Shown: positions 295 to 54,403 of the stretch, piece by piece
Layout of the letters: each line of letters opens with the position of its first letter
Numbering within the stretch: the stretch's first letter is position 1
DNA from: Bacteroidota bacterium
GTDB taxonomy: Bacteria; Bacteroidota; Bacteroidia; B-17B0; Aurantibacillaceae
Assembly: GCA_021156365.1 (NCBI GenBank)
Contig: JAJNDK010000001.1
Coordinates: 620,001-684,000, forward strand
Reading direction: 5' to 3'
DNA: 64,000 nt
Made by a program: the position numbers and the translations under genes
Notes under the pieces: generated by a model
The model's input: only the letters and a program-made list of their open reading frames with translations
Told to the model about the DNA's origin: nothing
Database searches by the model: none

Positions 295-753
295 TTAACG
301 GATAGCAACAAAAATATCCACTTCTGCATCCATCGGATTCTGTGCCTTCTCTCCATACACTTCAAAATCGGCAGTAAAAGTACGCGGCAGATCCGCAGCC
401 CATATTTTCAGCCATTCGTTGTACACCAATCCTTCCATAATATTTCCTTTGGCGGTCCGCACATCGTAGGTGCCTCCTTCAAACTGCTTGCCTACCATTC
501 CCTCCGGGATCGTTTCGAGGCTCGAAACCCTGCATCCGAGAATTGTGGTATAGGGACGTGTGTGGTCCTTTTCGTACTCCGTGTAAATACTATAAATGGA
601 CGAATCGATCTTGTTGGGGATCTTTTGGAGAATGCCTTCCGACATAAATTTAGCCCACAGGACAGGAATATCCTGCGCCGCCTGGTTGTTTTCATTGGTG
701 GTACGGATGGAAATGCCAATTACGCTGAATGGCTGAAGTGTTTGTTTGTTCAT
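295..753 (-). CDS. GyrI-like / AraC effector-binding domain protein
   Basis: A 152-residue single-domain protein of the GyrI-like small-molecule-binding superfamily (SHS2 fold; AraC_E_bind, SMART AraC_E_bind-type). Recognisable features are the N-terminal beta strand with FSVIGISIRTTNEN, the central IYSIYTEYEKDHTRPYTTILGC strand pair, the GMVGKQFEGGTYDV segment, and the C-terminal VYGE...DAEVDIFVAIR strand typical of stand-alone family members. No DNA-binding domain is attached, so it is not itself a regulator of AraC type. Members bind hydrophobic or cationic ligands, and some act as gyrase inhibitors or hydrolases; which applies here cannot be told. It is monocistronic, convergent with the kinase and preceded by a TAGCTTTG -7 box. 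Confidence 0.8.
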   Translation of the reverse strand: MNKQTLQPFSVIGISIRTTNENNQAAQDIPVLWAKFMSEGILQKIPNKIDSSIYSIYTEYEKDHTRPYTTILGCRVSSLETIPEGMVGKQFEGGTYDVRTAKGNIMEGLVYNEWLKIWAADLPRTFTADFEVYGEKAQNPMDAEVDIFVAIR

Positions 754-900: not shown

Positions 901-1670
901 TTTTCATTACTTCGCTTCTATGCTAAGGTAATTAAAAGTGGAAAAACAGTGTCCTTGTGCGATCCTTTAGTTGTCTCTACCTGTTTAAAAGTGGTATCCG
1001 GCAGAAAAAAGGAGAGATGGGATCAGTTTTCAGGATTCTTCACTCATTTAAAAGTAAAATCGGATAAAAAAAAGGCGTTATAAAATCAGTTCCCATTACT
1101 TTTCATCCCTTAAAATATAATATACCCCGGAAAAAAAGCAATACAAAACCAGTTTTCATTACTATAATTTCTCTTTTCAGTAATATGCACCGGAAAAAAA
1201 GTAATATGAAATCAGTTTTCATTACTATAATTCCCCTTTTCAGTAATATACTCTGAAAAAAAAGTAATATGAAATCAGTTTTCATTACTAGAATTACCAT
1301 TTTCAGTAATATGCGCCGGAAATAAAGTAATATGAAACCAGTTTTCATTACTAGAATTCCTCTTTTCAGTAATATACGCCGGAAATAAAGTAATATTAAA
1401 CCAGTTTTCATTGGTAGAATTCCTCTTTTCAGTAATATACTCTGAAAAAAAAGTAATATGAAACCAGTTTTCATTGGTAGAATTCCTCTTTTCAGTAATA
1501 TGCGCCGAAAAAAAAGTAATGAAATCAGTTTTCATTACTCTTCAACCCATTTTAAAGTAATATTTCACCGGAAAAAAAGTAATATAAAATCAGTTTTCAT
1601 TACTATTCGATCATTCAAAATTAATATCCAGGAGAAAAATACCGCTATAAAATGGTCTTTCATTAACAGG
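901..1670. repeat. 63-bp tandem array with 21-bp phased AGTAAT sub-repeats
   Basis: About twelve imperfect 63-bp units fill this 770-bp stretch. The landmark AGTTTTCATT (or close variants) begins at 1025, 1088, 1151, 1214, 1277, 1340, 1403, 1466, 1527 and 1592. Central units are nearly identical and both ends are worn, but the phase can still be followed to about 906 and 1662. Each unit holds three AGTAAT hexamers 21 bp apart, the first inverted (ATTACT), for example at 1158, 1179, 1200, 1221, 1242, 1263, 1284, 1305, 1326 and 1347. Each hexamer sits beside an A or T tract (TTTT or A6-7). Two units carry ATTGGT in place of ATTACT. AGTAATAT-GAAA pairs with TTTCATTACT as an imperfect hairpin. 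No gene is seen between 754 and 1691. The rest of that stretch, 784-900, is AT-rich without clear features. Open frames on the minus strand arise because 63 is divisible by three; differences between units change amino acids freely, so they look non-coding. Confidence 0.95.
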
Positions 1671-1691: not shown

Positions 1692-2132
1692 TTAAAGTCC
1701 GTTATACAGCTTTCTTAGCTCTTTTATCCTGTTTTCCGTTAACTCCGTCAGGCAATACAAATATTCTATGGCTCTCAGGTGACAGCCACCACAATCCTCA
1801 TAACTATCATAAATTATAACACAATGGCTATCCCGAAAATCTCTCCAGTTTTTCTGCATCCGGATGACCTTATATTCCAGACTATCGATAAAGTGCGTTT
1901 TTGCTTTTAAAAGCAAAGAATCATAAACAAGGGTGAGAATGGAATCACTTTTCTGAAAGGCAAGATTGGCGCAGATCCTCGCCGACAAGTTGTCGCCCGG
2001 AGGATTCGAACAGTCGACTTTGTTTTTTAATTTAAGGTATTCCTGATTTTTTATATGGTCGATATGGCCCTGCGAGAACAAAGACATTCCTGTAAATATA
2101 TACAGGATCAGTAGGTTGATTTTTGTTATCAT
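1692..2132 (-). CDS. LprI-like (DUF1311) secreted protein
   Basis: A 146-residue exported protein. An N-terminal signal peptide (residues 1 to about 21, ending FSQG) precedes a DUF1311/LprI domain. Diagnostic features are the paired cysteines, the pattern MQKNWRDFRDSHC, a GGC motif, and the closing YCLTELTENRIKELRKLY helix. The family is named for Mycobacterium LprI, a lipoprotein that inhibits lysozyme; most homologues are untested, so lysozyme inhibition is only a possibility here. It has no lipobox and is likely periplasmic. It starts 24 bp after the SH3-like gene on the same strand, suggesting co-transcription, and its 3' end abuts the tandem array. Confidence 0.8.
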   Translation of the reverse strand: MITKINLLILYIFTGMSLFSQGHIDHIKNQEYLKLKNKVDCSNPPGDNLSARICANLAFQKSDSILTLVYDSLLLKAKTHFIDSLEYKVIRMQKNWRDFRDSHCVIIYDSYEDCGGCHLRAIEYLYCLTELTENRIKELRKLYNGL

Positions 2133-54128: not shown

Positions 54129-54187
54129 GTTTACCTGCTCTTGCGGCCTGATTTGGATTACCATTCATAGAGATAAAGAAGCAAAAA

Positions 54188-54376
54188 GCACCTTTTACCT
54201 TAATTATTACCGCAAATACAGAGAGAACCGCGGAAAGAAATAAGCAAATAGCAGCAATTCCCTTAATTATCGCCGCAAATAGAAAGCGAATCGCGGAAAG
54301 AAATAAGCGGAAAGCAGCAATTCCCTTATTTCCTGCAAAAAATACAGAGGGAATCGCGCAATGTAAAGAGCGGAAA
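54188..54376. repeat. Second 63-bp tandem array with 21-bp sub-repeats
   Basis: Three imperfect 63-bp units start at 54188, 54251 and 54314. Each divides into 21-bp steps opened by GCNGCAA/GCGGAAA-type words, at 54209, 54230, 54251, 54272, 54293 and 54314; the next (54332) is three bases early, then 54356 is back in phase. The words end in AT-rich runs such as TTCCCTTAATTAT and GAAATAAG. It shares no sequence with the array at 901-1670 but has the same period and threefold subdivision. It fills the gap between the terminator and aroA, which has no gene (54077-54403). Confidence 0.9.
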
Positions 54377-54403
54377 GGAGTATAAAATCACTATTTTTAT
54401 CCA

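Follow-up and report, generated by a model that had tools for sequence, protein, structure and literature searches.

The genome of this member of the Bacteroidota carries at least 18 intergenic tandem arrays whose units are mostly unrelated in sequence and which have a 21-bp step in common, as found in about 1.67 Mb of sampled DNA (31% of the genome). These arrays form a dispersed class, and their comparison suggests that DNA spacing, rather than sequence, is what is kept from one array to another. Two turns of B-DNA correspond to 21 bp, and our preferred, though tentative, reading (probability of about 0.4) is that the arrays are spacing-constrained, helically phased platforms for a putative architectural DNA-binding protein. 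The focal array lies in the first 2 kb of the window, that is, the whole 64-kb stretch of DNA that was analysed.

Arrays on a common 21-bp step

A tandem-repeat scan of 1.66 Mb of blindly chosen DNA provided 16 of the arrays, and two more, on contigs C2 and C14, were found through matches to related units; gene calls came from a simple script based on codon usage. Roughly 50 arrays of the class are expected in the whole genome. Their periods are 21, 42, 63 or 84 bp, with one of 83 bp, and lag 21 was the best of lags 15–31 in all 18. Among the 21 intergenic arrays examined, the period was an exact multiple of 21 in 17 (binomial probability about 2.5e-19 against uniform lags of 8–130), the eighteenth combined an 83-bp period with a 21-bp sub-period, and the remaining three, with periods of 86, 68 and 114 bp, lacked the 21-bp step. 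No such restriction to multiples of 21 applies to repeats within the genes of this genome, which occur at lags of 24, 30, 72 and 120, among others. Examples of the class are the following:

C7:107461, class array, CTGTAGAAATAGCACAGGCCG
C7:690342, class array, GGTCGGAACGTGAACCCGCAT
C7:347954, class array, CATAGCAGTTATTCCCTTGAT
Contig C14, class array, AAATCGATTTCGATGC...
Window 54175–54384, second class array in the window, period of 63 bp in steps of 21 bp

The last of these has the 21-mer AAGCGAATCGCGGAAAGAAAT in common with the array on contig C2. On contig C16, intergenic 83-bp units that divide into sub-units of 21 bp (lag 21, z 6.3) occupy positions 507000–507640 and correspond to four steps minus one base, and near-identical intergenic 86-bp units at 65540–65950, built of 43-bp half units (TATACCCGTT...), are without a 21-bp step.

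The spacing is held in spite of extensive divergence. Exactly 21 bp separated adjacent units in 268 of 272 steps, against 1,656 mismatches between adjacent units, and four arrays (C7:166k, C7:454k, C7:490k and C16:0) showed zero indels at a mean unit identity of 0.37–0.54. When arrays of similar divergence were simulated with one indel per 20 substitutions, 44% were detected and those carried about 7 indels, so that detection bias does not explain the missing indels. Where indels do occur they are often compensated, as by −2, +1 and +1 in the focal array and by −1 and +1 within one unit at C7:240264. There is a weak tendency for conserved columns to be grouped at one place in each 21 bp (Fisher p=0.028). 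Selection is argued from the scarcity of indels within the arrays of one genome.

The genes adjoining the arrays are varied and include both housekeeping and surface functions (AroA, PurH, glutamine synthetase, GH92, a response regulator, a carboxyltransferase and others), identities outside the window having been judged by eye from the sequence. Arrays were found both 5' and 3' of their neighbours, some at 3' ends only. One 21-bp array adjoins a gene for a predicted secreted protein of 110 aa with DADYKAD/DSDYKA-type repeats (L225:608-940).

The focal array

The focal array is a tandem repeat of 63-bp period with an exact 21-bp sub-period, extending from about 906 to 1661, and its GC content is 29.6% versus 44% for the 64-kb window. 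Its neighbours are Cass2/GyrI-like, LprI and SH3-like genes, and it lies 132 bp 5' of the first of these. The region is organized as follows:

295–753, minus strand, gene for a Cass2/GyrI-like effector-binding protein, with the focal array 5' of it
754–1691 (938 bp), gene-free gap holding the focal array, between the Cass2/GyrI-like and LprI-like genes
885–1115, worn left part with slots in phase (ATTACT at 906 and 1095, one-mismatch hexamers at 927 and 1053)
1116–1514, homogeneous centre of 63-bp units, each of three 21-bp sub-units (AGTAAT, AGTAAT, inverted ATTACT)
1515–1577, phase slip of −2 bp followed by +1 and +1, net drift zero
1578–1661, worn right part, in phase again (hexamers at 1578 and 1599, one-mismatch hexamer at 1620)
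1692–2132, minus strand, gene for an LprI-domain protein, with the focal array 3' of it

In the centre, each 63-bp unit reads AGTAAT plus 15 bp, AGTAAT plus 15 bp and inverted ATTACT plus 15 bp. Autocorrelation over 901–1670 reached 0.689 at lag 63, 0.649 at lag 126, 0.397 at lag 21 and 0.398 at lag 42, and was 0.24 at lags 20 and 22; over 1053–1670, lag 63 had a z of 22.1 and lag 21, the best of lags 15–31, a z of 5.9. A single 21-bp grid from 906 to 1599 holds 20 of the 22 exact AGTAAT/ATTACT hexamers, and the two off the grid, at 1534 and 1556, both fall within the 2-bp phase loss, after which the phase is regained by 1578. A dynamic-programming fit allowing steps of 18–24 bp placed 37 unit slots over 885–1661 with a net drift of 0, including one step of 19 bp and one of 23 bp. 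The autocorrelation and the hexamer grid therefore bear out the original prediction of 63-bp units with three hexamers at 21-bp steps, one inverted and two direct, and the grid and the slot fit agree with its account of a phase running from about 906 to 1662, in which a 2-bp loss near 1520 is undone by two 1-bp gains. The predicted number of about 37 sites holds for the slots, but only 22 contain an exact hexamer; several more are one base off and two read ATTGGT. Inspection of the units likewise showed the near-identical centre and worn edges that had been described, and this arrangement, with its head-to-tail units, is that of a minisatellite under unequal-exchange turnover.

The AGTAAT unit itself is confined to this place. 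The genome-wide search for AGTAAT at 21-bp spacing, which had been suggested as a check, returned no second copy in the genome, so that a genome-wide binder specific for AGTAAT is unlikely. About 40 relatives yielded nothing convincing (weak, short, AT-rich matches, best E 4e-5), 395 Bacteroidia genomes gave one single match, which is unrelated, and among phages and plasmids no convincing relative was found, with no plasmid match at all. The AGTAAT/AGTAAT/ATTACT architecture on 21-bp steps was sought in 84,980 species genomes, where 83 stretches had one or two matches and none lay in a comparable array; many of them sit in 7-bp STRR-like repeats. Viral contigs gave eight single matches. Rfam contained no family matching the focal array at gathering score, the best matches being far below it. 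A description of helically spaced 21-bp intergenic arrays was not found in the open-access literature, which is weak evidence as subscription papers were outside the scope.

Coding capacity, curvature and folding

Seven codons make 21 bp, and genes for heptad-repeat proteins are for that reason a natural rival. Across the intergenic arrays, column variability did not depend on codon position (Fisher p=0.30; p=0.61 for the focal array) and its 3-bp Fourier component was absent (p=0.53), whereas control coding repeats of the same genome showed codon-position dependence at p<0.02 in 9 of 11 cases. These controls included genes with 63-bp coding repeats at C16:238801-241770, the first of them histidine-kinase-like with 21-aa coiled-coil repeats (ELAFQNEEKEKRAAEL). 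By codon score, the best frame of the focal array ranked at the 0.6th percentile of genuine coding DNA, and all six frames of the array contain stops; together with its lack of a mod-3 signal, this rules the focal array out as a translated coding repeat. For the arrays as a whole there was no clear sign of stop avoidance, and the class appears, from its sequences, to be mostly not translated. Three arrays (C7:107k, C7:240k and C22:175k) have coding-like codon scores, and a KRIAEN-type repeat at the protein level is common to window 54175, C16:334456 and C2:61.5k, for which reason a coding origin is retained as a possibility for part of the class. The sequence GIVKSVNG is common to C7:240k and C22:175k, no start codon is seen in the sequence of the open frames of C2 and C22:175k, and a pattern search for the KRIA-type unit in 87 genomes matched only in the array-bearing genome.

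Additive curvature from the A/T tracts had been proposed for the focal array, and there the proposal is supported: the predicted bend has a z of 6.2 against dinucleotide shuffles and lies at the 97th percentile of column-permuted arrays, and it drops if the period is altered to 20 or 22. These values are estimates from a first-order wedge model. Predicted curvature is high also in C7:240k, low in C7:347k and C16:334k, and several sister arrays are predicted to be straight, which rules curvature out as a property of the class.

The original prediction had offered a transcribed hairpin array as its alternative. Each 63-bp focal unit can indeed form the hairpin AGTAATATGAAATCAGTTTTCATTACT on either strand, yet the folding energy of the array does not stand out from that of column-permuted controls (z −1.0 for either strand), and results for the other arrays were mixed. 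A common RNA fold is therefore ruled out for the class, and the hairpin alternative is unsupported as a common principle. No palindrome common to the class units was found. The proposal that did gain was that of a non-coding DNA element with a kept helical phase: since unrelated arrays hold the same 21-bp step, this reading is supported more strongly than from the focal array alone.

Candidate explanations and known systems

On the simplest reading, selection acts on helical phase but not on sequence, in keeping with what an architectural protein would need of its platform. Selection would keep the rotational setting of each array, which would thereby expose, on a single face of the helix, a local core every two turns. 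Because the units differ and have no common palindrome, fold or curvature, a single protein would have to read spacing and not sequence; the putative reader may be an architectural or filament-forming DNA-binding protein, tolerant of a change in sequence and intolerant of a change in phase. Unequal exchange would multiply and homogenise the units in the centre, and the edges would decay. A fuller version, in which about 50 non-coding arrays constitute a lineage-specific system selected for rotational spacing and hardly for sequence, and from which a phase-reading protein or filament that organises the chromosome would follow, is more doubtful and is put forward only as a conjecture.

An unlikely, although serious, rival holds that the arrays have no function and arise as a side effect of lineage-specific duplication, in which about 21 bp, or two turns, are copied at a time and turnover through unequal exchange follows. 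The units that are mostly unrelated and specific to each array, the dispersal beside unrelated genes, the uniform centres with worn edges and the confinement to one genome among those sampled would all be accounted for; strongly diverged arrays nevertheless hold the step without indels, and repeats within genes are not limited to multiples of 21, though such a process should act there too. Small genes for heptad-repeat, coiled-coil-like proteins, or decayed relics of them, seem rather improbable. A reading frame would likewise account for the missing indels, and the KRIAEN-type and GIVKSVNG repeats, the coding-like scores and the coiled-coil repeats of the histidine kinases agree with it, but the flat mod-3 pattern, the codon score and stops of the focal array, the lack of clear stop avoidance and the open frames without a start codon argue the other way.

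It is highly unlikely that the focal array stands by itself as an operator or bent DNA upstream of the Cass2/GyrI-like gene, with a specific regulator bound to AGTAAT on one face. Its position 132 bp 5' of that gene, the single grid that holds 20 of the 22 exact hexamers and the high predicted curvature would suit an operator, although 757 bp and 37 slots far exceed what one needs, the AGTAAT unit occurs nowhere else, and sister arrays adjoin unrelated genes, in some cases at 3' ends only. Very improbable, finally, is an action as RNA through tandem hairpins in a transcript, for although a hairpin is possible in every 63-bp unit on either strand, the folding energy is unexceptional and inconsistent over the class, and no Rfam family reached gathering score.

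Of the systems already known, the iteron arrays at replication origins of plasmids and secondary chromosomes also place direct repeats about two helical turns apart, with bound initiators on one face. Iterons all carry the same sequence, which a neighbouring Rep gene reads, and are present once or twice per replicon, whereas here there are 18 arrays, mostly of different sequences and with up to 37 slots, and no adjoining Rep gene. An iteron-type origin was ruled out for the focal array by its neighbours, which are not Rep, by a unit found nowhere else and by the lack of a plasmid match. Centromere-like partition arrays, of which sopC and parC are examples, are likewise non-coding tandem arrays of some length that serve a DNA-binding protein, here a putative one; they are single sites of one sequence per replicon beside parAB-type genes, unlike the class arrays, which are many per genome and mostly different. 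A CRISPR array was ruled out, as there are no unique spacers within the units and no CRISPR-related Rfam match.

Phased A-tract DNA resembles the focal array, which has A/T tracts in helical phase and a strong predicted curvature above that of composition-matched controls, but the class has no common curvature. Minisatellites (VNTR), too, are tandem repeats of intergenic DNA that are uniform in the centre and worn at the edges; ordinary ones have many unit lengths, whereas here nearly all are multiples of 21 with hardly any indels. Intergenic tandem repeats are usually seen as neutral minisatellites of arbitrary unit length, and a near-universal 21-bp step with few indels points to selection on non-coding helical phase or, alternatively, to duplication machinery with a two-turn measure; each would be new, if true.

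No such array was found when nine members of the family and one further Bacteroidia genome were sampled over about 1.15 Mb, where about 11 would be expected at equal density, the same-genus genomes compared being distant (sampled parts mostly 26–37% GC vs 44%). Among 22 non-coding arrays in 0.64 Mb from a varied set of other genomes, two had their peak at 21, and these are cyanobacterial 7-bp repeats; the contrast has a Fisher p of 4e-7, with a comparison sample that was drawn by the 21-bp pattern and is not neutral. Cyanobacterial STRR, whose 7-bp units also yield a peak at 21, are similarly short intergenic tandem repeats dispersed over a genome, but the present arrays give no signal at lags 7 and 14, and their 21-bp unit is array-specific. 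A heptanucleotide repeat of this type was ruled out, since multiples of 7 other than those of 21 were not among the top lags and the best were 21 and 63. Many intergenic 7-bp repeats resembling cyanobacterial STRR (GGGTTTC/GGGTTTT) are present in a distant Bacteroidia genome (G025; L216 and L217).
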